Shown: positions 3,995-53,101 of the stretch, one piece after another
How positions within the stretch are numbered: position 1 is the stretch's first letter
Layout of the letters: every line of letters begins with the position of its first letter
NCBI GenBank assembly: GCA_903813345.2
Contig: CAIIXF020000007.1
Coordinates: forward strand, 36,176,538 to 36,240,537
Reading direction: 5' to 3'
Length of the DNA: 64,000 bases
Origin: Owenia fusiformis
Taxonomy: Eukaryota > Annelida > Polychaeta > Sabellida > Oweniidae
The notes under the pieces: model-generated
The model's input: only the letters and a program-made list of their open reading frames with translations
Told to the model about the DNA's origin: nothing
Database searches by the model: none
Made by a program: the position numbers and the translations under genes

Positions 3995-5047
3995 TTATAA
4001 ACCCAAGTTCAATGTTACACCTAATTTGTGTATTAAATCGTCTTTAACGTAACCATCTTTGGCGGATTCTGATTTCCAACGTCCATGACGTTTAAAATTA
4101 CGATCTAAAACAGAACCATTGGCTGCAGCAGTTGCACCGCCTGAACGTAACGAATGAACGCCAAATAAATTTGGATCAAGACCAATGGTCTTTAACATAC
4201 TACGGACAATTTCCCTGACTGTTGTATACGATAATTGTTTGTTTTCTGTTCTTGCAACAAAAGCTCTTTGAAGTGGCTTAAATGACAGTGCCCTAAATAT
4301 AAAGCACTCTTTTGACAGCTCATTTTTTGAGTTCAACGCTTTTAGATAACGTTGTAAAAGAGCGTAAGGACAAGTAGGATTGCCAGTTTTGGCAACAACA
4401 ACTGAATTCCCTTCTCTGTATACATCAGTCTTGGAAGACGGAATATTTATAGTAAAATGAAATTCACTAAAGGAAATGTCACCAAAAGTGATCTGAGCTA
4501 ATTCACTGTAACGCAAAAAACCTGCGAATCCCAAAACGCAAATTGTCACATTTCTTAATTCTTTGAGAGAACTTTGATCTGATAAAGAATCGACCAGTTT
4601 ATGCAACATATCCGCTGTGAAAGGTTCTTTTTTAACAACTGGTTTACTCGCTTGTCTCTTAGCTGCATCTAGAATGTTTCGAACTAAGTAAGACTGACAG
4701 GGGTCCTCTAAACCAGCAGATGTGTGAGCCCAGCTTATTCCAGATTTAAGAGCATACAGAACGTTATATGATGAACCACTTTGTAACTGGGATAACAGGA
4801 AAATGGCTACGAACTTTGAGTTGGCTGGTAGATCGTTTACTTCATCGAAACTGTTGGTCCATTTAGTCCATTTTTCGAAATAAAAACTGTACTTCTTAAT
4901 TGTATTTTCGCTTTTCCCATGTTTTGTGATTTCAGTCATAAGATCCAACGACAAAGATTTGAGGCGAGTGTCTTTCACATTGTCGAATTGTAGCATACCA
5001 TGTTTAATAACCCTGGAACCATATTGTATTTCTAATAAATAAATCAA
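3995..5047 (-). CDS. Tyrosine recombinase of the DIRS-like element
   Basis: Integrase of the phage lambda/Cre tyrosine-recombinase fold, expected to insert a circular cDNA by strand exchange. The catalytic set is visible: the first Arg in GFLRYSEL (about residue 179), the HxxR box in GVHSLRSGG (H298, R301), the second histidine in HGRW (H321) and the nucleophile in DGYV (Y333). The N-terminal third (residues 30-130) looks like the core-binding SAM-like helical domain. The 350-codon frame opens with TTG and has no in-frame ATG until residue 18. The upstream frame is open only to a stop at 5135. Initiation at that ATG or splicing onto this exon are both possible. A TTTTTTAG sequence near 5085 resembles a splice acceptor. 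Confidence 0.9.
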   Translation of the reverse strand: MIYLLEIQYGSRVIKHGMLQFDNVKDTRLKSLSLDLMTEITKHGKSENTIKKYSFYFEKWTKWTNSFDEVNDLPANSKFVAIFLLSQLQSGSSYNVLYALKSGISWAHTSAGLEDPCQSYLVRNILDAAKRQASKPVVKKEPFTADMLHKLVDSLSDQSSLKELRNVTICVLGFAGFLRYSELAQITFGDISFSEFHFTINIPSSKTDVYREGNSVVVAKTGNPTCPYALLQRYLKALNSKNELSKECFIFRALSFKPLQRAFVARTENKQLSYTTVREIVRSMLKTIGLDPNLFGVHSLRSGGATAAANGSVLDRNFKRHGRWKSESAKDGYVKDDLIHKLGVTLNLGL

Positions 5048-5289
5048 TTGACAAAAACTCCTCTCATGAGAACCTGCGGAATCTCTAAAAAATAAAATTA
5101 TGTTTAAAGCCAGAATGCTGCCGATCCCTCTGCATCAATCACTGTAAAGCGATGTTCATTCATATAATTCTAATAAAACATTTCAATTTAAGTTGACATT
5201 TTGTAAGTCAATGTATATATTTAATTTAATTTGAATAATTATCAATGATTTTTAAATATATTCTTAGTATAATTATAAATATACTCTTA

Positions 5290-5780
5290 GTGAGAATTGA
5301 AATAGTATTCCAGTGGCAGTCTGATTTTATAAGCACTCAGGAATATTCTAAATATGATTTTTGTAGCATTCAACATATATTCTCAGTGGCTATCAAATTT
5401 TGCTCTCAGTGGCAATCACTAAGGTATTAAAAATAATCTCATATTAGCAATCAATGTATTATGTTCTTATCAATATCTAGTAATCGTTAGTAATACAATT
5501 GAAATACATTTATTATATGCTCTCAGTGGCTATTAATATAAGCTCTCAGTGGCTATATTTACAAACCCTTAGTGGCTATATATTTATAAGCTCCTCGGTG
5601 GCTATCAATATAAGCTCTCAGTGGCTATCAATATAAGCTCTCAGTGGCTATCAATATAAGCTCTCAGTGGCTATCATTATAAAATCTCAGTCGTTATCTA
5701 TTCAAGCTCCTCAGTGGCTATCATTATAAGCTCTCGGTGGCTATCAATGTAACTCTCAGTGGCTATCAATATACTTTTAC
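5290..5780. repeat. 23-bp minisatellite between RT and recombinase ORFs
   Basis: Irregular tandem copies of a unit containing CTCTCAGTGGCTAT followed by AATATAAG, about 23 bp long. Spacing is loose at the left and regular from about 5520 to 5770. It lies in the 826-bp gap between the RT stop codon and the recombinase ORF and encodes nothing obvious. Confidence 0.8.
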
Positions 5781-5873
5781 AATTGAGATCTATGAAATCA
5801 AGATATATCTGTAAATTCAGTAAATATGTTGTTTAAAAATCAATAAAGACTTTCAATGCTATCTTTAAAACGC

Positions 5874-8048
5874 TTAATAGGATGTGCCCAACTTTCCATT
5901 TAACCTCAAGGCCAGAACATGTGATTTTAACTTTTTCGTTCCAAACACAGTGTTAAGAAAACGTCCCTGTTGAAAAATATTCATGGGATTGCAAAACTCT
6001 ATGTGATCTACCACAGTTGGAACAAAATTCCCATCTTTAAAAATGAGAGGCCAGAAATAAGACGATGTCCACTTTGGTACGATGAGCGTTCCCATAGCCT
6101 TACAAGCTATCAAATGATCGACTACCCGCCCTACAAGTTGAATAGGTGGAACAAGCCAATTGTTTTCATTTTCCCAGTTGAAACTGAAAGCATCTACCCC
6201 TTCGGTAGAGGGTTGGGCGAATTTGGAATTAAAACGTGGTAGTTTTGTATTATCTACGCTAGCGAAACGATCAATGGAATGAGGCCCATATCTCTGATTC
6301 AGAAATTTGAAAATAGATGGACACACCATCCAATCATCTGGATCGATCATTTTGCTCAAATCGTCTGCTCTTTGATTGAACTTTCTTGGAATCCAGTAAA
6401 AATTCAAGTCTATTTTGAACTTCCTACAAAATTCAAAAATTCTAATTGCCAAAGCCTGAAGCTCAGTGACCATGCTTCCTTTACTTGTAATTCTGCACAC
6501 ATTTTGATTGTCTGTAGACCAAGAAACGGACTTGTCAATAAGCTCACTTTTGAAAGAACTTAGAACAATTTCTACTGCCTTTAATTCTCTCCAAGTTGAA
6601 CTTTTTACCTTTTCTGAATCCGTCCACGCTTGATAACTGATAGATTGATTTTTGAGTTCGCCATGCTCAATTATATAACCAGCCGCTGCGCTTTCAGAAG
6701 CGTCAGAATATACAAATCGTTCTGGAGCGTGACATTCTATCAAATCGACACCGTTGTATACATGTATGTTTGATAACCAAAATGTTAATTCTGTTCGATC
6801 AAAATCGGATAGCACTGTATATTGATCCCAATTTGAAATTCCAGCAGTTTTCATGCTGAGATACCTAGTCATTAGCAAAGTGATCTTCCCTAAACCATGT
6901 CCCATTGAAATGATTTTTCCGACAATTGATGCTATTTGTCTATAAGTAACCTTTTTCTGTTTCAACGTAAGGATGACCAAATTCTTCAAATGTTCAATTT
7001 TTGAATCTGGAACGAAAATTTTGCCTTGGTTCATATCTAGAACAAAACCCAACCAAGTCAAGGATCCCTGTGGATTGAACTCTGACTTTTTCTCATTAAT
7101 GACATATCCTGCACTGTTCAAATCCGACCTCAAAAGAGCGGCGTCCAGTTTTGATTGTTCAGTACTGTCAGAAACGTTTAGAGCATCATCTAAATAGAGA
7201 ATGACCTTAAGACCTTTTGACCTCCAATGAGTGACAAGACTTTTGAAAACTTTGGTGAATACTAAACCTCCAGTACTGATTCCAAAAGGCAATACAGTGA
7301 AAACGTAGAACTTTTGTACACCTAACATGTTCCACGAAAACCCTAAAAAAGTTTGATGAGGTTCGCAAATATCGATGTGATGGTAACCGGAAGTGACGTC
7401 AAAGGATATTAATTTTGATCCTTTTTTCAAATAATTTTTAGCAGTTGACAAATCTTCATATTTCACACTAGATTTTAAAATGTACTCATTCGGATGTCTC
7501 ATATCTAAAACCAAACGTTTCTTGCCAGATGAATTTTCCGCAACCGTCAAAGGATTAACAACCCATGGGATCTCATCAACTTCTTTTATACAACCCAGAA
7601 TTTCTAGTGCCTGTATTTCTTTTACTACAAAATCGGAATTTTCAATTGCAGATTTGTTGTTATTCAAAATAGCTCTAGGTGGAATTTGTTCAAATGGAAT
7701 TTTATAGCCATTAGCTATTATGTCAAGTACATAACTATTTGTGTTAATGCTTTGCCAGAAACTGAAATGCCTCTTTAAACTGCCTTTTACATTTACTTTG
7801 TTTCCCAGTGAATTCAAAATATCATTTGAGCTACTTAACTTGTCTATAGCTCCCTGACCAGAAGTGTGGGGTCTATCGAGATGCAACGTCGGTACTGGTC
7901 TTCTTTGTACAGGAATCTGCCCAGTGCGAAAGGTCCCCGCAGACCCAGCAGCCGCCTGGCTTGAAGTGACCTCTACCACGTTGGCTGATGTTGTTGGCAA
8001 AATAATTTCCGCGCCAGCCGTAGCCCCGGTTCCCGTAGGTCGGTCCAC
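5874..8048 (-). CDS. Reverse transcriptase / RNase H polyprotein of the DIRS-like element
   Basis: A 724-codon frame that copies element RNA into DNA. RT motif A is FDVTSGYHHI (D217), the catalytic motif is ILYLDD (about 283-288), and LPFGI precedes it. RNase H follows with a full acidic set: YSDAS (D449), WRELKA (E488), STDN (D513) and QRADDL (D562). The C-terminal segment (about 589-670) has DRFAS, DAFSFNW and a VPP motif. This resembles a degenerate form of the Dam-like methyltransferase region of DIRS elements, but the resemblance is inferred by eye. The listed start is a GTG inside gag. The two frames overlap by 176 nt, with RT in +1 relative to gag, so expression by frameshifting is more likely than independent initiation. 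Confidence 0.92.
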   Translation of the reverse strand: MDRPTGTGATAGAEIILPTTSANVVEVTSSQAAAGSAGTFRTGQIPVQRRPVPTLHLDRPHTSGQGAIDKLSSSNDILNSLGNKVNVKGSLKRHFSFWQSINTNSYVLDIIANGYKIPFEQIPPRAILNNNKSAIENSDFVVKEIQALEILGCIKEVDEIPWVVNPLTVAENSSGKKRLVLDMRHPNEYILKSSVKYEDLSTAKNYLKKGSKLISFDVTSGYHHIDICEPHQTFLGFSWNMLGVQKFYVFTVLPFGISTGGLVFTKVFKSLVTHWRSKGLKVILYLDDALNVSDSTEQSKLDAALLRSDLNSAGYVINEKKSEFNPQGSLTWLGFVLDMNQGKIFVPDSKIEHLKNLVILTLKQKKVTYRQIASIVGKIISMGHGLGKITLLMTRYLSMKTAGISNWDQYTVLSDFDRTELTFWLSNIHVYNGVDLIECHAPERFVYSDASESAAAGYIIEHGELKNQSISYQAWTDSEKVKSSTWRELKAVEIVLSSFKSELIDKSVSWSTDNQNVCRITSKGSMVTELQALAIRIFEFCRKFKIDLNFYWIPRKFNQRADDLSKMIDPDDWMVCPSIFKFLNQRYGPHSIDRFASVDNTKLPRFNSKFAQPSTEGVDAFSFNWENENNWLVPPIQLVGRVVDHLIACKAMGTLIVPKWTSSYFWPLIFKDGNFVPTVVDHIEFCNPMNIFQQGRFLNTVFGTKKLKSHVLALRLNGKLGTSY

Positions 8049-8628
8049 CGTAGAAATTCCCTGGTTGGAATTGGTTTCCCCATGCCGCGTCTCGTTGATA
8101 GTCTTCTCTGCCGAAACTGCCGCGATGCCTGAAATTATAACTACGACGAGAGAATCTTGATCGACTTGATCTCATTTTTCTAATAGCGTCTCTATCTGCG
8201 GAACGTATACGTTTATCATCGTCATCATCTAATGCTAATGGTTTTCTGTCATATTCTTCAACGGTTTTCCAACCTGCATCTGAACTATCAGCCATTTTGA
8301 TTAATTTATTTCTATAATCAATTAAATTCATACCTTCTTGAAGCGTTTCGTGCGTTTTCATAATCAGTTCGTCTTGCTTTTCACCGGATTCCACCTTTGC
8401 AGCACGTTCCAACAGATTCTGGGAAGTATCAAAGCGTTCTTTTAGTTTCGAATTAAATTCATACTGCACTTTGTTACCCTTTCTCTTGAAGTTGAAATCG
8501 TCTTGCTTGAATTTCTTTAGAAGTTGTGTGTTTGTCTCCTCATTATCTTCTCTAAGAGCTCTCGAAAACTTGTTGAATTCTGAGGAAATAATATCTGTCA
8601 CGTTTTTTAACGTGGCAGGCTGATCCAT
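7873..8628 (-). CDS. Gag-like protein of the DIRS-like element
   Basis: 251 residues from an ATG at 8628. The N-terminal half is charged and helical. A basic, Arg/Ser- and Gly/Tyr-rich stretch follows (about 140-222). A CX2CX4HX4C zinc knuckle, CWVCGDLSHWADSC, sits at 227-240. This composition fits a nucleic-acid-binding capsid-like protein. It is the first ORF after the A1 repeat and overlaps the RT frame by 176 nt. No major capsid homology could be judged without a search. Confidence 0.82.
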   Translation of the reverse strand: MDQPATLKNVTDIISSEFNKFSRALREDNEETNTQLLKKFKQDDFNFKRKGNKVQYEFNSKLKERFDTSQNLLERAAKVESGEKQDELIMKTHETLQEGMNLIDYRNKLIKMADSSDAGWKTVEEYDRKPLALDDDDDKRIRSADRDAIRKMRSSRSRFSRRSYNFRHRGSFGREDYQRDAAWGNQFQPGNFYGGPTYGNRGYGWRGNYFANNISQRGRGHFKPGGCWVCGDLSHWADSCTKKTSTDVASR

Positions 8629-8650
8629 GTTGTGTGTTTATTGAACTGTA

Positions 8651-18179: not shown

Positions 18180-21100
18180 ATATTATGATAAACATGCTTA
18201 GATGGACTACATGCTGTTGCGCCATACACATTAGCTGTGGAAATGTAGAGGTTTCCTCAGCTGCCTCCAACTTCCATCAGAGTAGACATCTCAACTAAGG
18301 GAATGAGCGGTAAATGCTTGAAACCGACTTGCGACGGTCTATGGTAGGTTTAAAAAGCGCTTTATGGTCGACCAACGCTCACCTTTTCACATCTCCGCTC
18401 AAGCTTGAAGAAGGGGTTAAAAGTATGCTAGCTAGGGGAGACTTATTGGATACAGGGTGTGTCATGATAATGGTGGAGATGAGGCAAGATGACAAGGGAT
18501 TACTGGGGCAACCAATTTGCATTTCTTCTCAACCACAGCCAACGAGAGCAACGTTCAGCTTCCCTTCCTAGGGTAATCATTGCTTTCTTGCGCTTGCGAG
18601 ATGGTAGACCAAGCGACTTCAACATCCAGTCCATAGACTTGGCTGGAAAACCTCTGCAGCCTACTTCCACAGGGAAACAGTGTGGCTGCCATCCTCTTCG
18701 CTTGGCATCAGTTACAATGTCCTCGTATTTCAATTTCTTTAATTCGTGGGATTCTTCTACCCGCTCCTCCCAGGGTACAGTTAACTCAACAAGAATGATG
18801 GTCTGCGTTGTTTCTGAGGTGATGATGATGTCTGGCCTCAGAGTGGTGCTGACTACATGCTGGGGGAAAACAAGCTGCTTACCAACATCAACCTTCATAA
18901 CCCAATCAGATGCTGAATGTAAAATGCCTCTGGATGGCTGGTTAACTGTTGGTTTTGCAGTTGCTTGTCCTGCTTTCACAAATCCGATGGTTAGTGGTTG
19001 TGAGGGTGGACTAGTCAGGGAGGGATCAGAGATCAAGGGATCAAGCTGTCTAGCAATCTCTTTCAAAACCTGGTCATGCCGCCATGTGTAGCGATGTTCT
19101 GCTAGGGCAACTTTGCAAGAGCTGAGGACATGACGCAGGGAGGCTGCTCGATCTTGGCACAGCTGGCATGTAGGGTCATCGCTCAATTTCCAGAGTGCTA
19201 GATTTGTAGCTGTAGGTAAGGTGTCACTAAATGCTTTCAAGAAGAAAGCCACAGGTACATTACTCGTCTGCAGGAGATCACTTCCTGTGAGTTTCCGACT
19301 CTCTACTCCTTCCCACTTCATCCATGCTCCTTGGTTGCTCATAGTCACAGCCTTCACTCTTCTACTTTCCTCCTCCATTTGTCTCACTTCTGAGGTAACC
19401 ATCTTCCTCCTTTCTTTTGAGTTGGCCTTCGACCAAGGTATGCGTCCATAACTCCCGAGTCCCTTTCTGCCTTGAGCCACAGTACCAACGATGTCGCTCT
19501 GGTGCAGGCGAGTCTCTGCTTTGGTGATGGTATCCTGTGGGGACCACTTTCTGTTCTTCGGAGTTTTGGCTTCTGTTCGATTCGCGACTTTGTCCTTTGA
19601 GTCACGTAGCAACATTATCGTTCTTACTTTGGCTACCTTGTACTCTTCCACCACTGAATCAATAGGAAGTGCTGCTGGTGAGGATGAGCTGTACAAGTTG
19701 ACATCACTGAAGGACTTGGAGACACCTAGCCATTTCCTCAGCTTCTTGTTTATCATTCTCTCCATCATCTCTACTACAGTGAGTGGTATGTCGTAGAGGG
19801 AGAATGGCCAGCTCAGTCTGGGAAGGATTCCGTACTGAAAACACCAAACCTTGATCTTTCCAGGCAGTGTTGTTCTGTCGATCGCTTCCAGCCATGTTCT
19901 GAGTTGAGAAACTAACTCTTTGGTGATCTTTCTGTCTCCCAAACTGGCATCAAAGTATTTTCCCAAAGCCTTGATGGGCTGCTCTGAGATGGTTGGTATT
20001 CCCTTTCCTTGCACAGTGAACTTAGTGGGTGACATTGTACCTTTCTTCAAAACGAGGCTTCTTGACTTGTGAGGCTTGAATGTAAGTCTACCCCATGTGG
20101 CTATTGCTTCAAGTCGCTTCAGTATCCAGCGCATTCCTATTTCATGGATTGTCATGGCTGTTATATCATCCATGAATGCACGACAGGGTGGGTGGCAAGT
20201 TCCGTCCATGGCTTTTGGACCTCTGCATTCCTTGGAGGCTTCCTTCAGCATGATGTTCATTGCTGCAACAAACAGAATTACAGAGATGGTGCAGCCTGCC
20301 ATTATTCCCTTCTCAAGACGTTGCCAGTTAGTTGTTATTGTGCCTGATGTAAAGCGCATCTTCATACCTCCCAAGTGTTGTTTTACCAAGCTGATGACAT
20401 CTTCAGGCACATGATAGTGTTGTAGAGCGGTAAATATTAGTTGGTGGGGTACGCTAGGATATGCCTTCGCCAGGTCTAACCACACAATGGCCAAGTCGGT
20501 TTTGTTTTTCTTGGCTTCTGCTATCAGCTGAGACATTGCTGAAGTGTGTTCGATGCAACCAGCAAATCCTGCTATACCGCCCTTTTGTGCTGAAGTGTCA
20601 ATATAGCTATTCTTGGTGAAGAAGTCGGTCATTCGTCTTGAGATGATAGACCAGAAGATCTTTCCCTCCACACTCAACAGTGAAATCTCCCTAAACTGGT
20701 CGAGGGTAGATGACTTCTCTTCCTTTGGAACAAAGCATCCCTCCGCTATCAGCCAAGATGGTGGTAGCTGCTTCAACCTCCATGCCGTTTTTAAAAGCTT
20801 CCAGAGTCGGTTGGTTAACAAGGGACAGTTCTTGTAAACCTTGTAGGACAATCCACTGGGACCTGGCGATGACTTTGCCCTGGCCTTGCGAATAATATCC
20901 TTGACTTCTTTTAGCTTTATTTCATCAAGATCAAACTGATGTAAAGGCGGGGGTGCGGGGCTGATGTTAGGTGGTTCGTCCAAGGGAACATCTCGCTGGG
21001 GGTCGCTGTGGGAATCCATGAGACTGGCTTCGATTTCATCCCTACTGCTTTGCAGTTGGCCGGACTTTGGTTTCCCTAACAGTTCACCAATGAATGTGAA

Positions 21101-22017
21101 GGGGTTCTTAAAGAATTTGCTTCTTGTCTTCCTTCTTTCATTTCGGCGTTTTCGGAGCCTTTCTGCTTGCCTCAGTGATCTCAGCTTAGCTCTGAGGTTG
21201 TCTCTCAACACACTCAGTGCTTGGCGTTGACCATCCTCAGCTTGCAGGTATGCATTCCTCAATTGCCTCAATTCTCTCCTGATGTTTGCAATCTGTTCTT
21301 GGCGTCGACTTGGGCCTGTCTGTTTTCTGCTGTTGTCACTTCTTTCTACGAGGCCAAATCTCTCTTCGCACACTGCGTAGACTAATGTTGGAAATTGGTC
21401 TAGCTTCCTCACAATGTCTCCCCTGAGATTTGCCTGCAGAACTTTATCCAGGTCTTCATCCAGTTGTTTCCACTCCGGACTGGATGCCGGTGGTAGTTTC
21501 AGCTGCTGTCTCCGCTCCTTTACTGGCTCATTTGCTACTTCTTCTTGCGCACTAGTGTTTGCCACCTCTTCAGTATGGTTTTCCCTGACACTGTGGTTTG
21601 AGTCCTGGTCTGAGATAACCTCTGTCTCATGCTCGGCAGGTGCCTGACTGCAGATCTTCAGAGTTGGCCCACACTTCATTCTGCCTTTGTGGATCTGTAC
21701 TCCATGCCAGTTTTTGAAGTGTCGATTACAGCTGTCACAAATGTTTGATTTTATCGGTTCGTGTTCAATTCGATGTCTTTCAACGTGTCCAGTGTGATTG
21801 CGATGGTCTGCTTCCGTTTTATCTGTCCGTGTCTTTCGAGGCTCTTTTAATAGACTTGTAGCGAGAATGTAGTGTGCATGTCTTGCGACATGCACTTGGT
21901 CTCAGGAGCTGCTGACACCTGAGATCAATGGGTGCTGTCTGTCCAGCTGTCACTGTCCTTTCACAGTTGTCATGAGGACTATTCCCTCAGGTCACTGGTC
22001 GTCGCAGACCAGAGATA
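18180..22017 (-). mobile_element. Full-length R2/HERO-like LINE with restriction-like endonuclease
   Basis: Minus-strand non-LTR element with a short 5' leader (22017-21896), one long intact ORF (21895-18500) and a 3' region of about 320 bp ending at CATGTTTATCATAATA. It has no poly(A) tail, as is common in R2-superfamily elements. Its last 480 bp are repeated head-to-tail upstream as a truncated copy (22018-22504). The host site is a dispersed repeat seen uninterrupted at 13.2-13.8 kb. The leader contains a perfect 6-bp stem (CTGGTC/GACCAG). Confidence 0.88.
18500..21895 (-). CDS. R2/HERO-type LINE polyprotein: zinc finger, reverse transcriptase, endonuclease
   Basis: 1131 codons, uninterrupted. 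An N-terminal zinc finger CDSCNRHF...HKGRMKC (C53, C56, H69, C75) is followed by a basic coiled segment (about 195-265). The RT domain runs from about 330 to 720, with VWLDLAKAYP (D474) and the catalytic box AFMDDITA (D576, D577), methionine replacing the usual alanine of FADD. A gag-knuckle-like CCHC (CQLCQDRAASLRHVLSSC, 910-927) precedes a PD-(D/E)XK restriction-like endonuclease. That has LRPDIII (D1022), VELTVPWE (E1037) and downstream lysines. This order is that of R2, R4, NeSL and HERO elements, which nick a target and prime reverse transcription there. The first codon is GTG, an in-frame stop lies at 21904-21902, and the first ATG is residue 73, inside the finger. Clade assignment is tentative. 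Confidence 0.92.
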   Translation of the reverse strand: MHVARHAHYILATSLLKEPRKTRTDKTEADHRNHTGHVERHRIEHEPIKSNICDSCNRHFKNWHGVQIHKGRMKCGPTLKICSQAPAEHETEVISDQDSNHSVRENHTEEVANTSAQEEVANEPVKERRQQLKLPPASSPEWKQLDEDLDKVLQANLRGDIVRKLDQFPTLVYAVCEERFGLVERSDNSRKQTGPSRRQEQIANIRRELRQLRNAYLQAEDGQRQALSVLRDNLRAKLRSLRQAERLRKRRNERRKTRSKFFKNPFTFIGELLGKPKSGQLQSSRDEIEASLMDSHSDPQRDVPLDEPPNISPAPPPLHQFDLDEIKLKEVKDIIRKARAKSSPGPSGLSYKVYKNCPLLTNRLWKLLKTAWRLKQLPPSWLIAEGCFVPKEEKSSTLDQFREISLLSVEGKIFWSIISRRMTDFFTKNSYIDTSAQKGGIAGFAGCIEHTSAMSQLIAEAKKNKTDLAIVWLDLAKAYPSVPHQLIFTALQHYHVPEDVISLVKQHLGGMKMRFTSGTITTNWQRLEKGIMAGCTISVILFVAAMNIMLKEASKECRGPKAMDGTCHPPCRAFMDDITAMTIHEIGMRWILKRLEAIATWGRLTFKPHKSRSLVLKKGTMSPTKFTVQGKGIPTISEQPIKALGKYFDASLGDRKITKELVSQLRTWLEAIDRTTLPGKIKVWCFQYGILPRLSWPFSLYDIPLTVVEMMERMINKKLRKWLGVSKSFSDVNLYSSSSPAALPIDSVVEEYKVAKVRTIMLLRDSKDKVANRTEAKTPKNRKWSPQDTITKAETRLHQSDIVGTVAQGRKGLGSYGRIPWSKANSKERRKMVTSEVRQMEEESRRVKAVTMSNQGAWMKWEGVESRKLTGSDLLQTSNVPVAFFLKAFSDTLPTATNLALWKLSDDPTCQLCQDRAASLRHVLSSCKVALAEHRYTWRHDQVLKEIARQLDPLISDPSLTSPPSQPLTIGFVKAGQATAKPTVNQPSRGILHSASDWVMKVDVGKQLVFPQHVVSTTLRPDIIITSETTQTIILVELTVPWEERVEESHELKKLKYEDIVTDAKRRGWQPHCFPVEVGCRGFPAKSMDWMLKSLGLPSRKRKKAMITLGREAERCSRWLWLRRNANWLPQ

Positions 22018-41083: not shown

Positions 41084-41169
41084 CTATTGGTCAAGTGGAA
41101 TGTGCTCTTCTTCAGGGGTTGGTTGACGTTCATAATCAGGATTAGTTATTATGTAACCTACGACTAGAC
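41084..41169 (-). CDS. CYB561: Cytochrome b561 exon 5 (terminal)
   Basis: 86 nt after TTTACAG. It finishes the last helix (LVVGYVITN), then the acidic cytosolic tail and a TAG stop at 41086-41084. No clear polyadenylation signal was pinned down downstream. Confidence 0.9.
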
Positions 41170-44100
41170 CTGTAAAGTAGAAATTATATCACAAATAATA
41201 TCAAGGACACAAAGAAAGCTAATTTTTTAAGATTCAAATTTTTATCTTAATGCCTTGTTTGTATTTTTCTTGTTTCCATGCGAAATATGACTCGACTTGG
41301 TCTCGTTCAAATCCTCCAATGCACATAAGGAGAGGGGAAGGGAGGGGGTCCCAGAGACTTAAACCTAGATGGACTCAAAATGACAATATTTTCCCATCAC
41401 ATTACCCAAGGAGGATTTACTCCCAGCATTCTTTAATCATTTTCTTTTGACTCGGCATGAAACAATTTGGTTATCCTGTTACCATAATGTTCATCTCCGG
41501 ACCAAGTATTAAGTCTGGAGGTGAACATTAAGGAAATATTAATACCGAATTGGTCCATGCCAGTCAATTCAAGATAAGGAAGGAATCTTGGGTACCGGCC
41601 TTCCTTGTACAATACCAAATGTAAGACATATCAGTACCTAGTGCCACAAGGACCATTCCCAATATGTTAATAATGACACCCTCAGCAGGTAGTGCACTAT
41701 AAGGGACACCTTTGTAGCTTGGAGAACCCCTGAAATGAGAAATAACACATTATCAAATATGATACAATTAATGTAATTTAGCATTATTAAACATATTATA
41801 ATTTTACATACTTGAATATTATAAATTTGTCATATTTATAATTATATACATTGAATACCTAAACAATGAAATTACACACATTGAATACTTACACACAGAA
41901 ATTACATACATTGAATACTTACACACTGAAATTACACACATTGAATACATACACACTGAAATTACACACATTGAATACTTACACACTGAAATTACGTAAA
42001 TTGAATACTTACACACTGAAATTACACACTGAATACTTACACACTGAAATTACACACACTGAAATTACAAACGTTGAATACTTACACACTGAAATTACAC
42101 ACATTGGATGCTTACACACTGAAATTACACACATTGGATACTTACACACTGAAATTACACACATTGAATACTTACACACTGAAATTACACACATTGAATA
42201 CTTACACATTGAAATTACACACATTGAATACTTACACACTGAAAAATGCTTTTTCTGTTATGCCCATTAGTGATGTAGCTATGGCCATAACAAATATTGC
42301 AAGGCCAAAATAGACATGTATCGGCTTGTAGATTGTTCTCATGCTTAGCGCAACTTTGGGCCACAGGAAACTAACGAATCCAAACACCCACTACAAAAAG
42401 ATTATCAAATGTAAATTAGATAATAGTTTTCAAAAACAGATTTTCAAATCATTTATATATTACATTTTTAAATATAGATGGCGATCACAAACCTATTACA
42501 AATATAAATATTTTGTCTACTGAATTCATTACTTCAAGGTCTGTCAAATATAAATAATATCTAAATAGGATGAATTAGAATCTATAAATATATCAGTACT
42601 ATATATAACACTAACATTTTACATACTTCTAAAAAGAAATTTTGTAATTTTTTAACTTGTCACATATAAAAATGCAATTTCATTAACAAGAAATATTGTT
42701 TCAAATATCTCAACTTCATTAACTTCAGAGTATAATGGTTTATTTTCAACGTTTCGCAAGTCATCCAACTAGCTTTATCAAGACTACATTCAAAATGGAA
42801 GTACACAGTTATATTATTTATGACGTAGTAAATGAACAGTTCAAGTTACTCAATAAGTTGAGTTATTTGAAATATATTACCAGAGTGATGAATCTACACA
42901 GGAATAAAATATTGTATTATCCTGAAATAATGTTGATGTTGGGGAGGGGGTTGTTAGGGGATTGGCCAAACAAGGGTTTAGTACAAGAATATCTAGAGCA
43001 TTATTGCATTATTCCATGCTTTGAGTAATAATATCAAATGTCATGCACATTATTTGTTTACAATTAATAATCACAATTCAAACAGTCATTAAATACACTA
43101 ATATAATGAGGTGGCTGATTGCAGTCATATATCTACAGGAAAATGTTAACAGAATATCCAAATAGGGTTACCACAACATTTTCAAATCAAGATTCCCTAA
43201 TTCAAGGATGATATATCTACAGGAAAATGTTAATAGATTATCCCAATAGTCATTAGGGTTACCACAACATTTTCAAATCAAGATTCCCTGATTCAAGGAT
43301 GATATATCTACAGGAAAATGTTAATAGATTATCCCAATAGTCATTAGGGTTACCACAACATTTTCAAATCAAGATTCCCTAATTCAAGGATGATATATCT
43401 ACAGGAAAATGTTACCAGATTATCCCAATAGTCATTAGGGTTACCACAACATTTTCAAATCAAGATTCCCTGATTCAAGGATGATATATCTACAGGAAAA
43501 TGTTAACATATTATCCCAATAGTCATTAGGGTTACCACAACATTTTCAAATCAAGATTCCCTGATTCAAGGATGATATATCTACAGGAAAATGTTAATAG
43601 ATTATCCCAATACTCATTAGGGTTACCACACCATTTTCAAATCAAGATTCCCTGATTCAAGGATGATATATCTACAGGAAAATGTTAATAGATTATCCCA
43701 ATAGTCATTAGGGTTACCACAACATTTTCAAATCAAGATTCCCTAATTCAAGGATGATATATCTACAGGAAAATGTTAATAGATTATCCCAATAGTCATT
43801 AGGGTTACCACAACATTTTCAAATCAAGATTCCCTGATTCAAGGATGATATATCTACAGGAAAATGTTAATAGATTATCCCAATACTCATTAGGGTTACC
43901 ACAACATTTTCAAATCAAGATTCCCTAATTCAAGGATGATATATCTACAGGAAAATGTTAACAGATTATCCCAATAGTCATTAGGGTTACCACAACATTT
44001 TCAAATCAAGATTCCCTAATTCAAGGATGATATATCTACAGGAAAATGTTAATAGATTATCCCAATACTCATTAGGGTTACCACAACATTTTCAAATCAA

Positions 44101-47100
44101 GATTCCCTAATTCAAGGATGATATATCTACAGGAAAATGTTAATAGATTATCCCAATACTCATTAGGGTTACCACAACATTTTCAAATCAAGATTCCCTA
44201 ATTCAAGGATGATATATCTACAGGAAAATGTTAACAGATTATCCAAATAGTCATTAGGGTTACCACAACATTTTCAAATCAAGATTCCCTGATTCAAGGA
44301 TGATATATCTACAGGAAAATGTTAATAGATTATCCCAATACTCATTAGGGTTACCACAACATTTTCAAATCAAGATTCCCTGATTCAAGGATGATATATC
44401 TACAGGAAAATGTTAACAGATTATCCAAATAGTCATTAGGGTTACCACAACATTTTCAAATCAAGATTCCCTGATTCAAGGATGATATATCTACAGGAAA
44501 ATGTTAATAGATTATCCCAATACTCATTAGGGTTACCACAACATTTTCAAATCAAGATTCCCTAATTCAAGAATGATATTCAAATCAATTCAATTTTTAT
44601 TCCTTGAAAGTATAGCTATACAAAGTACATATAATAAGGTTAACAGGTGACATCATTTCTCAAAGACGATATTCACACGTCATCAAATCCAAGTATAACC
44701 AAGAGTCCGTATTCATGAGACGGAGTAATATTGTCGTACAGTCATATCACCTCAGGGAACCTAATCAGCTTTATGTTTGCAGATCCTTGAAGGATTTACA
44801 GTCTAAAGCAGAACATCAAGAAAGATCTCAACTTGGATGGATAGCACATGCATTCATTACTTAATAGACTATAACTACATCTAGGCGATGTGCACTAAAC
44901 TGTATGCAAAATATCCATGGGAACCAACAATTTACTCAGTCCAATGCACAAATATAAAAATGTTAATACTCAACTCATAATAACAAGCAAATCCATCTAC
45001 CATCCATATATGGACATATTACCATATATGGATGCATTTTTATATGAAATATCCATCAATTGTAATTATCCCTCAAAACACTATTACTTCTTTAATACTG
45101 GACACCTTATTGTGCACAAAAATATTAAGGGGAGGCATCAAAAGTTCGATGTCGGATAGAAATAAATCTAGTTAGGGGGGAGGGGGTTCAAACCCATTTC
45201 AGTTTGCTATCCGACAAATTTCAACATTTCAAATTTTTGACAATTTCGACTGAGAATGCCTTTGAATGGTTTAAAAATAAAGATTTTACCTGATGTTTTC
45301 TTCGTCAAGATCATTCCAATGGATTCTATTCTATCAATAGTTGTTAAAAGCCGCAAATTACGATAGGAATTAACAAAAAAACTAGATCGTGTTTAGCAAT
45401 AATTTTTCAAATTCTCAAACCGGAAGTCAGCGATCAACTTTCATGGTATTTAGTTTTTGGGGGAGGGGGGGGGGCAGAGTCAAAACTAGATTTATTTAGT
45501 TTCCGATCCGACATCGAACTTTTGATGCCTCCCCTAATATATGATGTCTTTGATAATCACTGCCATCATGTATACATGTAGATTATTCTAGTTATGGAAC
45601 AGTATGGGTTTTGTAAATTACCATGGGGGTTGCGCTATGTACTGTACACAGTAAATTGAATTTACATATCACTATGGTGATGATCATATTCTTGTCTCAT
45701 AAAACCTCAGTTCTTTTGAGATTCATTTCCTTCTGGGAATCTTCACCTTGATATAAAATTCGTTAGGAAAATTCTATATCAAAGTGAAAAAGGATTTTTG
45801 AATTGTTACAGAGTAACATGAATTAGAGTTGTGCATCATAATAATAGTCATGCCTCATGAAAATAGTCCTGCATCATAAAAATAGTCCAGCATCATGTTA
45901 ATGCAAACATGATCATATATCTGAGTAGCAATAGTGAAATACTTTGAAAATGACAACAAATTACAAAAAAAAACAGTTCGTAAAGTGTTTTTTGAAAGGC
46001 CTAATGAATTTATCTAATGACTTTCCAAAGGCAAAAAGGGTCAATTGTGGTCCTTCTATTTCTCTTTCTACCTCTCATTGGTACCTCTTACACAACTGAA
46101 CTAAATTGAATTGTTATATTGTAATATTTCTGTAAATGTCTTCAGGTTTCTTGTATATAAGTTAAGTTTAATAAATTTCAATTAAAACAAAAAAATGATT
46201 TGTTACGAAGCATTTTTACAAAAAGGTTTATAATCAAGGATTCTGTGCCTGTGTGACACTCAAAAATTCTTCCTTACAAAGATTTTTGTCAATATGCTTC
46301 GTCACGAAGCAATTATAAAACCTGCAGTGTAACTTTTACCATTGGCTCTGTTATCTTTGTCGAGCCTTGATGACCTTTCTTTCTCTCTTTGAAAACACAT
46401 CTTTACAATTAATCATAGTGTCTCATTGAACAGAGATGTATGAGAATTCACACTTAATTGGACGCAATATCAGGTGGCATTTCTCATTCTTGACTCAGGA
46501 AGACATGGATATAAGAGACACGGCAATTTCTATATTACTGTTCTATCGCTGATGCGACTTTGTTAACATAAGATAACAAATGTGGGAAATAACCTATACC
46601 ACAAAAATATATTCTAAACTATACCATACTAACGCAGCAAATATTCATTTTACCATACTAATGTGTCCTTAATTATACCATACTAACACAAATATGTCCT
46701 AAATTATACCATACTAATACAAACATGGCTTGATCACTAAAAATGACATACTATTTTCTTAAATACAATTCATAATAAATCAAATACATAGGTGAGGGAG
46801 AAATGGGGGAAAGATGAATAATGATGTTTGGATTTCAGGTTCTTTTAAAATCATGCAATCATGCGGACAATAAACATTCAAGCTATCTACTGAAAACAAC
46901 AAACACTAATGATAATACAGTACAACAAGGGGGCAAACGCCCGATTTCCCGAATACCTGAAGACCAAACAAGATAACGGTGGTGAGACCGAGCCAGGAGT
47001 GAAGACTATACATATTGGGGATTGGTTTTTCAGCTAGGTTGTGAGAATCAAAAACTGCCTTGAGACCAACCGCCGCGAAGAGCAGCGCAAACGCCTGAAC

Positions 47101-50100
47101 CACCCCGTGGAGTATTTTCACATACATTTTACGCTCATTGCGGAATACTCTGTAGACTAGGATGGCTGCAAAATACAATGAAATACACAAAATTGAAAAA
47201 GGAATATACACTATTAACTTCAGGGACACTAATGGGACTGGCGACTGGGTACTTTAGGTGTGCCCCAATTAATGAAAATAAAATTGGTTGATGAAGAACT
47301 CCGTAATGTGAATTTAATCCCATCTTGTACTTATTGAATAAAAGAATAGTTTAAGTGTATGTTAGCTAGCCTATAGTTTCAATACAGATACATGCATATA
47401 TATGAATACTTAAGCTATATCGGGCGTAGAAAGGCATGAAACAGGTTGAGTAACCACATAACAAAAATTTTAGATAGAAAATGTATTTAGATTTTCAATT
47501 AACAAAATCAATTCCAAACGTAGTAATATGCATCCTTCAGCCTAAATAAAAGGGGCGTGAGTTGTTCGTAGAATGAATTCTGGAATTTTTTCATGCATTT
47601 CGCTTATCTTTTTCATCTTAAAAACAGGAATACACTTTAAAATGCTTTATTGACTGTAAGATTGCACCATATAATCCAGAAAAGTATTTCTCATTTTCAA
47701 GGATTATCTATGGATTAACACCCAGGTATTTTTATTTTTCTTCAGAGGGGTGAAAATCATTATTACTATCGCTTTTGAAAATATATAAATGCTGTTTTAA
47801 ATAGGTTTCATGTATGCCAAAAATTTCTCAAATTGTGTAAACTGCACCAATTCTTTAATCCCTAGAATATTCTCCTAGAGGAATTTCCCATGTTAATCCA
47901 ATAGTGGGGTTCCAAGCAGATTTTGAGATAACAGGAAGGTCAATCTTTAATATACACCTTATTGGGTTGCGATATAAATGAAAGCAACCCAATAAGGTGT
48001 ATATTAAAGATTAACCTTAATTTTACATCATGGCTATGCCTACACCCTTAGCTATAAAGATATTTATCAAGATGTAAAAAGTTAAAAAAATGTATAGATT
48101 ATTTTACTTGGATACTCAGGTTTTGTTATACTGTAATTTAATTTCGCTGTGTTCGCGAATGTAGTAAAATCGCAAACATTTATCGTCGCAAAATTTGTCT
48201 TCTTTTAAATCCCCGGGGATTTGACCCGGGACTTTTGATATGTTTCGTTCGGTGTTAATCATTTCTCCAGTGTTGTTGGGCGATAATTAACATGGGGTAT
48301 TGTTCAAATTTATATCAACAATTGTTGTACTTGCTAAGCTCATGCATTTGTAAAAAGGCATGTAACTATATTAATATTATCAAGAGCTGGAGGAAAAAAT
48401 TCAACTTGAGTAATCCGCGAGATGTCATCAACTCAAATCCGAGAAATTAAATAGCCGCGAAATTGCAATTTTGAAAAATCGCGAAATTTTAAAGCGTCAA
48501 AATTTACCAGGAGTACAGTATCTATGGGAATGATAGAAATTCAACTGTAGTGAAAAAACATAATTATTTTTCCTTTTTTCTGTCTTGTTTTTACCCCCTC
48601 CGCAAATGTTTATAAAAAAGCAGCACTTCAAAAATAATTTATTGTTTTCTGCCCTTATTAATAATTCAAAATAATTATGCATTTTTCAACACTATGGAAC
48701 ACATTCTCTAATTGTTATTTAAAATTTGCATGATCACCCCACCACCTCTTGAAGTGCTCTCGTGGAAAGGAGTATTAGAACAGTATAAACTACAACTACA
48801 GTGTATTAGACAGTAAACCTGTCTAATTTGAACACCACCCAGACCACCTAAAAGTGTTCAGATTGGCAGGTGTTTAATTTCAAGATTTTTTAACATGTTA
48901 GACTATGGCAGATTCAAAATGGAACAAAGAAAGGCATTCAGATCGTGCAGTTCCTATATATATAGGTTTTACTTATATACACCCCCAAAATGCAATCTGA
49001 TTTTCGACGCCATTTCGGTGCCAAATTTCGGTGACGTCTCGGCACCAAATGGACTGACTAGTCCAGTGGCAAATTTTGGAGTCAAAAAGTTTTGGTGCCG
49101 GAGAATGGTGTCGAAACGGTGCCGGAACAGCGCCGAATTTTTTTGATGCCGAAACGGCACCGAATTATATTGGCTGTGTAAGTGGGACTAAGCATCCAAG
49201 GATCAACATATCTGCAAAACCGTTCTTCACATTTCCATTTCACATTAGCCATTTACAAGCAAACTTTCAAGTGCATACAAACTGTTAATGCTTTCAGGCC
49301 AAGAATATATTAGATCAACATCATGATTTTGTGTTTAAATTTTGTCCAACATTTTTTGCTATTTCTGTAACAGATTTTTTCGATTGAATTAAAATACCAT
49401 AAATTCAAGTTTATTTTTGGATCAAAATTGTATTCATAAGAAGAATCCATAGTAAAATAAACTCACAAAATCTAAATCATATTATACTTGAACCCAAAAT
49501 CATAATTCAACAAGCATATTTTTGGCCTTGATTTCTTGGTTAATGCTTATCTACATACACTCCCCCTCATAGGTTTGGCAACTGAAAGTTCATTAGATAG
49601 TGTATCAAAGCATGGCGATGCTTGAATGTTTTTCCCTAAATTACAGGATTACAATATATAGTTTGAAAATTTATGGCAAAGTAGACGTAAATTCTGACGT
49701 TTTTAACTTTAAAGTTTTATAAGTGATCTAAAAGGCGGCTTCCAGTTGCTAAACTTATGGAGGGGAGTGTAGGACCACCACCTGGAAAATAGACTTAATT
49801 CCGCAGTTACCTGGAGACAAAATAATATCACTGTAGTCAGTCCCAGCCAGCTGTGTAGCGAATATAGATTTGGTATAGGGGCGGGTACCGTGCCCTTTTT
49901 ATGTAAATTATGAGAATCGAATACTGCTTTTAGTCCAACCCCAGCAAACGCCATGACGAGAACATGTATACAAGCATGGAGGATTTTTACAAAGGTTTTA
50001 CGCTCGGTTCTGAAGACTCTATAAACCATTATAGCTGAAATAGAGTATCACATGTCACAACACTAAACACAGCAAATTTAACTAATAACTAATAATATCT

Positions 50101-52164
50101 ATAATACAAAACATACATGTATACAGTCTACATATAAACAGTAAAACCTGTCTAATTCAAACACTACTGGTGTTAAGATTGGCTGGTATTTACACCCAGT
50201 TGAACATGTATTAAGTTCCCTTGCACCCAGTTGAACATGTATTTTCACCCAATAGACTAGACACGAGTAGACATAATCTTGATTTACAATAATTGATTTA
50301 CATTAAATATTCAAAATTCAGTCAAAGTGATATCATATTTGAAATTTACATGTAAAAGGGTTTAGAAAATTGTTTATCATCTTTGAAATTTTTTTTTGAA
50401 AGTTTGACTTCTCGTTCGGGTTGATTCCCCATAGACCCAATGTTACAAATCACAAAAAGTGAAATATCTTTTCTTGTATTGGACAGATAACATTTTCTTT
50501 TACTGGACATATTTTTATTCAATGCGATAAGGGTTATATGAAAATTGAACCATGCAAATAGATGTAATTTAAGTTGAAGGGAACTTTCTACTATACCTGC
50601 CATGCTAATTGACCCGAACGAGCCACCTGGTGGTGAAACTGGTAACTACCTACTCGCATCTGCGTTATTGAGATTATAAAGTTCCCTTGCACCCAGTTGA
50701 ACATCTATTTACACCCAGTTGAGATTATAAAGTTCCCTTGCACCCAGTTGAACATCTATTTACACCCAATTGAGATTACAAATCCCCTTGCACCCAGTTG
50801 AACATCTATTTTCACACAATTTGAGAATCATTTTCCTTGCACCCAGTTGAAAGTTTATTTAAATCCAGTCGAGATTACAATTACTTCCTTGCACCAAGTT
50901 GAAAGTCTCTATAAACTCAGTTGGGACTTTGGAAAATCAAAAAATTAGGATTTGGGAGTACACATATATACTTGACAGACACTCATTTGAGTTTGGGTCA
51001 TTGTGCTTTAAGAAATAAACAAAGACAATCTGAAAAACATGTAAAAATTAATTTCTTTAATTATTCAATGATGCCAAAAAAGATCTAAGATTAAAGACAG
51101 GTCAGTATTTTTATATACTCAAGTGAAAGACAAATCAACATTTTAAAAGTTCTTAAGATGAGGGGAGGGGGGTTAAACCATAATGAAATAAGCTTCGACT
51201 GTTGATAATTGGACAACATCCCCTATTCAAGAATGATTTCAATAGGTAACACTTTATAAAAGCTAATATCAAACTGATTGCTTATTATCTTTATTTAAAT
51301 ATCACTTGACAAGTTAATTTCCTGAATTAATATTAAATCGGGAAATTACACAAAATGATTACTCAAACCAATAAAGATACTAAAATGAGTCTCCACAACA
51401 ATTTATTACAAAATCAATACCACTTTCTTGCGCCTATTCCTCACTCTGTAAATTGCCTAATTTTACTTTAAAAATAAAATGATGAATAAGATAAAATAAT
51501 TAAGCTGAAACTTCCAAACTTGCAGGCCCATAGCTAGGACTTGACAAGGGGGGTTCACTTTTTTAAAATTCCAGGGGGGCTCACCTTTGACTACTTTGGC
51601 CCAAAAAGGGTTAAAATCGCTTGAAAAGTGTTCAGAATGGTGAAAAACTGCATTATTTAGAAATAATTTTGGGCAATGTGGGGGGGTCCTTCAAACAGGC
51701 CTGATTTCCTTTATCTAATAAAGTCATTACAGTTTATTTGTTTATACAGCGTATCATAATTTGACAAAATTTTAATGAAAATGTCATGTTCCTTTGCATC
51801 AGAGATTCTACAAATTTGTAGTTACTGTGAACCCTAACAGACAGCAGTATACATGTCAAATTATCAACATACATATTTGTGTTTCTTTACTCCAGAATTT
51901 AGAGATATCAAAAAATTGAAAATCAAAAAAATAAATAAACATGTATCAGCTTTTTTAAAACTTACCATCACCATATAGAAAGACTAGACCAATAATCATG
52001 AACAATGGGTGGTAGTTGAACTCCCGACCTGGATCTTCCTGCCAGGCAAAGCCCCCTCTATAGGAGCCCATCCATACCGCTACGAGGATAACAGATGTTA
52101 GACCAAGAACCTGTGCGATGAGGACCCAGCCAGTGAAGAGACGGAGATTTGGCTGACTATCCAT
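41084..52164 (-). CDS. CYB561: Cytochrome b561 family protein (whole gene, spliced)
   Basis: Transmembrane di-heme oxidoreductase that moves electrons from cytosolic ascorbate across a membrane, as in chromaffin-granule b561, CYBRD1 and CYB561A3. Coding positions run 52164-51966, then one of two exons (50034-49811 or 47165-46957), 42390-42236, 41729-41638 and 41169-41084. All junctions are GT-AG. The spliced product is 251 or 246 residues, normal for the family. Heme-ligand histidines are visible as NYHPLF (exon 1), KILH and SLHSWLG (exon 2) and KPIHVYFG (exon 3). The [11 protein letters not shown] stretch and the C-terminal [15 protein letters not shown] tail also fit. The ATG lies 15 nt past an AG acceptor (TTTCTAG), so a noncoding 5' exon exists further right. 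Which vertebrate paralogue is closest cannot be decided here. Confidence 0.93.
41638..41729 (-). CDS. CYB561: Cytochrome b561 exon 4
   Basis: 92 nt after TTTCAG, phase 2 in. It encodes [17 protein letters not shown], then the last membrane helix [14 protein letters not shown]. The donor is CTAG|GTACTG, weaker than the others. Confidence 0.88.
41851..42235. repeat. 30-bp minisatellite made of splice-donor copies
   Basis: About thirteen 30-bp units. On the minus strand each reads TTTCAGTGTGTAAGTATTC plus AATGTGTGTAA. It is contiguous with the authentic exon-3 donor, which is the outermost unit. Units near 42028-42073 are irregular (27 bp plus a partial). Confidence 0.93.
42236..42390 (-). CDS. 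CYB561: Cytochrome b561 exon 3
   Basis: 155 nt after TTTTTGTAG. It encodes [20 protein letters not shown], the fourth heme histidine in KPIHVYFG, a membrane helix and GITEKAFFS. The donor is AGTGT|GTAAGTATT. The intron begins directly with an array of near copies of this donor. Confidence 0.92.
43120..44575. repeat. 91-bp satellite array
   Basis: Sixteen tandem units of 91 bp (GATGATATATCTACAGGAAA ... GATTCCCTAATTCAAG), the first slightly shortened. Variants at three sites (AATAG/AACAG, AGTCAT/CTCAT, CTAATTC/CTGATTC) are shared among units. The array lies in the cytochrome b561 intron between exons 2b and 3. Confidence 0.95.
44576..46956. other. Intron of the b561 gene, no other gene
   Basis: AT-rich intronic sequence. 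Contains the PIF-like MITE (45129-45534). The open frame at 44917-45159 has no domain. Confidence 0.5.
45129..45534. mobile_element. PIF/Harbinger-like MITE
   Basis: Inverted termini GGGGAGGCATCAAAAGTTCG at both ends, with TAA at 45126-45128 and 45535-45537. TWA trinucleotide duplication is typical of PIF/Harbinger. A truncated second copy starts at 56615. Confidence 0.75.
46957..47165 (-). CDS. CYB561: Cytochrome b561 exon 2b (alternative)
   Basis: 209 nt between TTGCAG and GTATTC, with the same phases as exon 2a (1 in, 0 out). It encodes [13 protein letters not shown], helix 3 with [10 protein letters not shown], the identical AVFDSHNL, a shorter AEKPIPNMY loop and [17 protein letters not shown]. 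About 50 of 69 residues match exon 2a. Differences cluster in helix 3 and the following loop. Confidence 0.92.
47936..48018. repeat. Near-perfect hairpin, 35-bp stem
   Basis: 47936-47970 pairs with 47984-48018 (core TATACACCTTATTGGGTTGC) with one mismatch and a 13-nt loop. It lies in the intron between alternative exons 2a and 2b. Confidence 0.85.
48120..48525. repeat. Possible diverged MITE
   Basis: ATACTGTAATTTAATTTCGC near 48127 and a GCGTCAAAATTTACC...TACAGTAT end near 48522 are loosely inverted. Phrases such as AAATTAAATAGCCG recur near 23840. Intronic to the b561 gene. Confidence 0.4.
49558..49769. mobile_element. TA-flanked MITE, 212 bp
   Basis: Left end CACTCCCCCTCATAGGTTTGGCAACT and right end AGTTGCTAAACTTATGGAGGGGAGTG, TA at 49556-49557 and 49770-49771. 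Same terminal family as 401-11943 and 25673-27332. Confidence 0.8.
49811..50034 (-). CDS. CYB561: Cytochrome b561 exon 2a (alternative)
   Basis: 224 nt between TTTCAG and GTAACT, entering in phase 1 and leaving in phase 0. It encodes [13 protein letters not shown], helix 3 with KILHACIHV, the AVFDSHNL loop, an extra GTVPA-type insert, and [17 protein letters not shown]. It carries two of the heme histidines. It is homologous to exon 2b 2.6 kb downstream. A 212-bp MITE sits 41 bp past its splice donor. Confidence 0.92.
50180..50940. repeat. Degenerate ~50-bp tandem repeat
   Basis: Units containing CCCTTGCACCCAGTTGAACAT and TTTACACCCAGTTGAGATTA. Clear from 50660 to 50940 and with outliers at 50210-50250. 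Intron 1 of the b561 gene. The sequence between the two parts holds an unrecognised 85-codon minus frame. Confidence 0.75.
51523..51703. mobile_element. hAT-like MITE, shorter copy
   Basis: Begins CAGGCCCATAGCTAGGA and shares GGGGGGTTCACTTTT and TTGGCCCAAA phrases with 40283-40494. The right end is degraded to CAGGCCTG. Intron 1 of the b561 gene. Confidence 0.65.
51966..52164 (-). CDS. CYB561: Cytochrome b561 exon 1
   Basis: 66 codons plus one base, from the ATG to GATG|GTAAG. It encodes the short cytosolic N-terminus, the first membrane helix ([17 protein letters not shown]), the YRGGFAW loop and the start of helix 2 with the first heme histidine ([17 protein letters not shown]). Confidence 0.93.
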
Positions 52165-53101
52165 ATTGCACCTTAGCCTAGAAATATAAATAAAATAAAT
52201 TTAATATGAACGTGTGGTCATTTCATGCCTTCTTCCCCCAGAAGAACCAAATAAACATTATGAATTGGAACATAAAAAGTTCAACAAAACATACATGGCA
52301 ATTGCCAAGGGGTTGCTATTTGTGTCAATGCAACCCCCTTGAGTCTCTTCGCTAAATCTTTAAAATCCACTCAACATTATTGACTAATGATGTACCCTTT
52401 TTATTTTTGCACCAAAAAATTGTCCATAAGGGCACAAACTTCATATTTGCACAAAAATAAAACAGTTTTTTGCCTCATTGATAGAAAAATTTGCCTCATT
52501 GCGCCCTCCTGTCAAATCCGAGCTATAAAAGTAAAATACCTGTACTCAGTACTAAAGAATATCCTTGAACATAATGTAATATAAAATCATTGATCACAAT
52601 ATGTGACAAAAACATCTCTCTAAAAGCTAAAAGCTCCTTACTCTTAGAAGATATTATAGCAAGACCGCCTACGCTTGAGCTAATGTTATGTCACATTCAA
52701 TTAAATACCCCGACAAATGTATTCAACTGTTATACGACAGGAAACTAGCAGCAATTTATCAGGTTCTTCCCTTTATAGTGCCATATAAGAATCAAGATTA
52801 CAGTTATTAGGAGCGTTATTGATTTGCTTTTGTGAGTCTACGTGCTTTTGTCAACGATGCAGTATCTTATTCTACTTGTTCTGTTCATTTAGGTTTATAC
52901 TCCAAAGTAAAATTAAGACCAGCAGATCATGAACTATTGCAGTTTCATTAAATAGACGAGAAAAGTCCTTTCGTTTCTTCTCTCATGTTTTATTGTCTGG
53001 AGAGGACAAAATTAATGCTCTCACCTCTTGTAATTCCCCTTATTTTCTATTTCTAATAAACGGTGGGGAAATGGAAAAGGTGATGTATTTGAGGAATCAT
53101 T
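52165..53101. other. Region upstream of cytochrome b561 exon 1
   Basis: TTTCTAG just ahead of the start codon marks a splice acceptor, so the transcript begins further to the right. The first exon was not identified. There is no TATA box or GC-rich block that stands out. Confidence 0.4.

Follow-up and report, generated by a model that had tools for sequence, protein, structure and literature searches.

Results

A cytochrome b561 gene with two alternative second coding exons

In the polychaete Owenia fusiformis, a gene for a cytochrome b561 carries two homologous versions of its second coding exon, 2a and 2b, and the sequence makes it very probable that these are mutually exclusive exons, which is the best explanation of the pair. 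The gene has five exons, with two alternatives for the second coding one, and runs on the minus strand from position 52177 to 41084 of the window, by which we mean the whole stretch of 64,000 nucleotides that was analysed (Table 1). Inspection of the sequence found AG/GT borders on its coding exons, and the spliced protein has 251 amino acids with 2a and 246 with 2b. An acceptor-like tttctag sits 13 nt ahead of the ATG, which suggests that an additional non-coding exon lies upstream of exon 1.

Table 1. Features of the O. fusiformis cytochrome b561 gene, in window positions.
Feature	Position	Strand	Remarks
5' untranslated part of exon 1, putative	52165..52177	-	13 nt; after tttctag acceptor
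Coding exon 1	51966..52164	-	ATG at 52164; helix 1 and start of helix 2; H1 in NYHP
Alternative exon 2a	49811..50034	-	224 nt; H2 and H3 heme ligands; His at H2+4
Intron separating 2a from 2b	47166..49810	-	2645 nt
Alternative exon 2b	46957..47165	-	209 nt; H2 and H3 heme ligands; Gln at H2+4
Coding exon 3	42236..42390	-	155 nt; H4 in PIHVY, Arg H4-7, Phe H4+25
Coding exon 4	41638..41729	-	92 nt
Coding exon 5	41084..41169	-	86 nt; TAG stop at end

Reading frame and splice sites

An earlier note on this DNA had proposed that the reading frame allows exactly one of the two exons in a working transcript, and each element of that proposal could be reproduced. Both exons lie base for base where the note had placed them and have clean GT-AG borders, 2a between ...ctatttcag and gtaact and 2b between ...attttgcag and gtattc. 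Exon 1 ends in phase 1, and the lengths of 2a and 2b are both 2 mod 3, so that each is entered in phase 1 and left in phase 0. When the exons were joined in silico, the 1-2a-3-4-5 and 1-2b-3-4-5 products were open through to the stop, and including both or neither of the pair shifted the frame and led to a stop within 3–7 codons: the 1-2a-2b-3 product ended 3 codons into 2b, and the 1-3 product about 7 codons past the junction, in exon 3. Since these stops sit well upstream of the last junction, transcripts with both exons or neither would be expected to be removed by nonsense-mediated decay. The frame leaves only the two single-exon transcripts useful; exclusion by the splicing machinery itself, which we predict, does not follow from the frame alone.

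Using a rough matrix built from general knowledge, we scored the donor of 2a at 8.9 bits and that of 2b (CAG/GTATTC) at 4.4 bits. Given the weaker 2b donor, one copy may be rarely used; a weak donor is not disqualifying, because this gene's exons 3 and 4 have donors just as weak (5.5 and 3.1 bits with the same matrix). The frame beyond the 2a donor stays open for 33 codons, to a TAA at 49709, and it could be argued that 2a serves as an alternative 3' end that yields a truncated protein without helices 5-6. We regard this as highly improbable: 33 open codons easily arise by chance, the 2a donor CAGGTAACT is strong, and the product would be without H4, which supplies an axial ligand to the cytoplasmic heme.

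The donor of exon 3 lies in a tandem array of about 30-bp units (window 41840-42244), which extends from this splice site into intron 3 and contains GTGTAAGT ten times and TTTCAG 11 times. Only the first donor of the array can be productive, because the later ones add an immediate stop (GTG TAA).

The two exons belong to one gene

To account for 2a and 2b without alternative splicing of an internal exon, they could be assigned to two tandem genes, or to separate promoters with first exons of their own, and the Drosophila b561 gene nemy does use isoform-specific 5' parts, as judged from the excisions and forward primers described in the portion of that report available to us (PMC4523183). Exon-by-exon searches of the 498-Mb assembly at E values up to 10 gave two copies of exon 2 and a single copy of each of exons 1, 3, 4 and 5, the lone additional match being weak (E 0.29) and containing three internal stops. 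As 2a and 2b each need helix 1 and ligand H1 of exon 1, and no second exon 1, 3, 4 or 5 was present among the best candidates scored, the two-gene arrangement is very unlikely; since the assembly searches gave a single exon 1 and a single exon 3, 2a and 2b must share one gene. A Pfam search of the assembly added two matches. One, on contig C5, is a b561 paralogue plainly distinct from this gene, and we read it from its sequence as CYB561D-like; the other, on contig C6, was weak and sub-threshold. The gene described here would then be the only one of the CYB561/Dcytb type in the assembly, a count that covers the best candidates scored in Pfam and single-protein searches made exon by exon.

The predicted protein is a CYB561/Dcytb-type cytochrome b561

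The two isoforms matched the Pfam family Cytochrom_B561 (PF03188) with 153.6 (2a) and 161.1 bits (2b) against a cut-off of 23. In phmmer searches the 2a isoform matched human Dcytb (5ZLE) at E = 1.8e-45 and plant CYB561 (4O6Y) at E = 1.4e-29, and 2a and 2b resemble Dcytb to nearly the same degree (30 identities for 2a and 31 for 2b). Residues are numbered here relative to the heme histidines H1-H4, following PMC10691727. All four of these histidines are present: H1 in YHP (exon 1), H2 in KILH and H3 in LHSW (2a or 2b), and H4 in PIHVY (exon 3). Alignment to 5ZLE and 4O6Y bore out the earlier observation that 2a and 2b keep the same two ligands, H2 and H3. Both isoforms also have the cytoplasmic ascorbate residues Lys H2-7, Lys H2-3 and Arg H4-7 and the non-cytoplasmic ascorbate/metal residues His H2+22, Tyr H3-3 and Phe H4+25. 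Within the exon pair, the Dcytb ligand, ascorbate and metal positions H2-7, H2-3, H2, H2+22, H3-5 and H3-3 are identical between 2a and 2b, as are the further contact positions H3-2, H3, H3+2, H3+4 and H3+14; the shared residues include Asn H3-5, Ser H3-2, Trp H3+2, Gly H3+4 and Gln H3+14. Position H2+21 holds Ser in 2a and in 2b, the residue also found there in insect CG1275/Nemy, and H3-4 is Leu in 2a or Met in 2b, both of which occur in the b561 family. The heme and ascorbate/metal residues of Dcytb are thus kept in both exons, bar known conservative changes. Together, these data indicate that the gene encodes a cytochrome b561 of the CYB561/Dcytb type, with a predicted function in ascorbate-driven transmembrane electron transfer.

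Age and constraint of the exon pair

The earlier estimate that the exons match at about 50 of 69 residues was close, as 52 of 70 aligned residues are identical, with one gap of five residues. A tblastn comparison of 2a with 2b inside the window gave E = 2e-30, far beyond chance, and each exon matched the PF03188 profile when searched singly (2a 68.5 bits, 2b 74.5 bits; cut-off 23). The nucleotide differences fall on codon positions 1, 2 and 3 in 14, 12 and 45 of the 70 codons, respectively; with 18 of the 23 fourfold sites changed as well, the silent sites are saturated. The NG86 method gave a dN of 0.20 and a saturated dS that was not computable; the constraint estimate is pairwise between 2a and 2b, and the figures are compatible with recent relaxation or decay of one copy. 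Neutral simulation starting from 2b produced, from 0.5 substitutions per site upward, no open copy with at least 52 identical residues. Since the simulation was negative and 52 of 70 residues agree while the silent sites are saturated, the exon duplication is by this evidence old, and both copies have been kept under purifying selection. Comparison of the flanking introns for homology left by a recent duplication found nothing beyond pieces of 13-31 nt, and a search of the introns for a third copy of exon 2 found none. IMG/VR and GTDB genomes (viral and prokaryotic) contained no relatives, as expected for an animal gene.

These results bear on whether one copy, more likely the more divergent 2a, is a relic or marginal, so that essentially one protein is made. 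Exon 2a has the five-residue insertion and the lower of the two single-exon Pfam scores, and 2b is the nearer of the two to the Pfam consensus and the plant protein; against this, the stronger donor belongs to 2a, and both copies have open frames, intact borders and their functional residues despite saturated silent sites. We therefore consider a relic unlikely, and return to mutually exclusive splicing as the preferred reading.

What the exon swap would change

The earlier note had located the differences in helix 3 and the loop that follows it, and the alignment agrees: nine of the 18 substitutions form an unbroken run from H2+1 to H2+9 in helix 3, and the loop of 2a is five residues longer. 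Within this run, H2+4 is Asn in Dcytb, as against His in 2a or Gln in 2b, the plant protein also having Gln; we take this to be the position of bovine His92 (ligand His88 plus 4). The non-cytoplasmic loop, which adjoins the metal-binding His H2+22, reads HKKGTVPAP in 2a versus AEKP in 2b and is more basic in 2a. Of the two isoforms that the note had proposed, what stands is a common heme core combined with a different helix 3 and loop, while the expression of both forms and any difference in their substrates or partners are predictions.

Should 2a and 2b both be in use, perhaps varying by tissue or stage, the choice between them would leave the electron path intact. It would alter helix 3 in its first half, which lies on the cytoplasmic-heme side, and would give the non-cytoplasmic loop beside H2+22 a different length and charge. 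Such a choice would tune the heme potential, the outer acceptor or the use of partners rather than turn activity on and off. A role in tuning the heme potential or outer acceptor is plausible because the changes fall at the bovine His92 position and in the loop beside the metal-binding His H2+22.

How the choice might be made

Steric exclusion by a short intron is unlikely to be the mechanism, because the intron between 2a and 2b is too long for it (Table 1). We searched the flanking introns of this single genome for pairing of the Dscam kind, between selector and docking sequences. The longest exact pairing was 11-14 nt, and the introns around 2a and 2b offered no convincing candidate for an inter-intron inverted repeat acting as a splicing switch. 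An Rfam scan of the window gave no match, and no splicing-control element for the 2a/2b choice was identified by these searches.

Several repeats and mobile elements were observed in the window. The intron between 2a and 2b contains a 47-nt inverted repeat (window 47924-48030; 87% complementary, 13-nt spacer), likely a small transposon remnant, and the intron that leads from 2b to exon 3 has a 91-bp minisatellite (window 43163-44579; 15.6 copies, 97% match). Elsewhere, a single open frame of 1133 amino acids with N-terminal zinc fingers (window 18500-21901, minus strand), read by eye, looks like the reverse transcriptase of a non-LTR retrotransposon, and its intact length suggests recent activity. 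Adjacent frames on the minus strand at window 3995-8637, likewise read by eye as gag-like zinc-knuckle, reverse transcriptase/RNase H and tyrosine recombinase, have an arrangement resembling that of DIRS-type retrotransposons.

Discussion

Tandem-duplicated mutually exclusive exons are a well-described class (PMC3228551; human landscape in PMC5740500), and the b561 pair resembles them: its two internal exons are neighbours, homologous and similar in length, they have the same borders and frame, and each isoform would swap one homologous segment. It differs in being predicted from the genomic sequence. WebScipio predicts such exons from a length within 20 aa, the same splice sites and frame, and homology (PMC3228551), and all three properties are found in 2a and 2b; on the fly X chromosome, 0.56% of non-exclusive exons had all three (PMC3228551). 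In the open-access literature searched, no earlier report of mutually exclusive exons in the b561 family was found. The pair would thus be a new instance, in this family, of an ordinary and well-understood type of splicing.

Human b561 variety comes from separate genes, CYB561, CYBRD1 and CYB561A3, whereas Owenia has two versions of one exon in a single gene. With human Dcytb (CYBRD1, 5ZLE/5ZLG) and animal CYB561 the Owenia gene has in common the PF03188 domain, the four heme histidines, the cytoplasmic ascorbate Lys/Lys/Arg set and the non-cytoplasmic His H2+22, Tyr H3-3 and Phe H4+25. Drosophila nemy is likewise one b561 gene with several isoforms, in which, according to the part of the report available to us, mutants that differ in the isoforms affected act on different ascorbate-dependent monooxygenases, PHM and TbetaH (PMC4523183). 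The difference is that the nemy isoforms are told apart by forward primers and a first-exon insertion, and an internal swap of a core exon is not described in that part of the report (PMC4523183).

Dcytb-type proteins are reported to have two heme potentials that lie close together and to react less readily with the monodehydroascorbate radical (PMC12563681). A single gene with both the Dcytb and the CYB561 role to fill might do so by choosing between exons. It is conceivable, though we think it rather doubtful, that exon choice in Owenia replaces the gene duplication of vertebrates and insects, with 2a giving a CYB561-like secretory-vesicle form and 2b a ferric-reductase-like form. On this hypothesis 2a, with His at H2+4 and a long basic loop, would serve luminal monodehydroascorbate and monooxygenases, and 2b would have Gln at H2+4 and a short loop; the pairing of 2a with CYB561 and of 2b with Dcytb rests on very few residues.

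If mutually exclusive splicing of 2a and 2b is confirmed, the gene would provide a natural swap experiment in a two-heme membrane enzyme, with isoforms that are identical outside one exon, share the known catalytic residues and differ only in half of one helix, on the cytoplasmic-heme side, and in a loop near the outer substrate site. It would offer a way to ask what sets the heme potential and the choice of outer acceptor in this protein family, and to learn whether a duplicated exon can take the place of the duplicated genes of vertebrates and insects.
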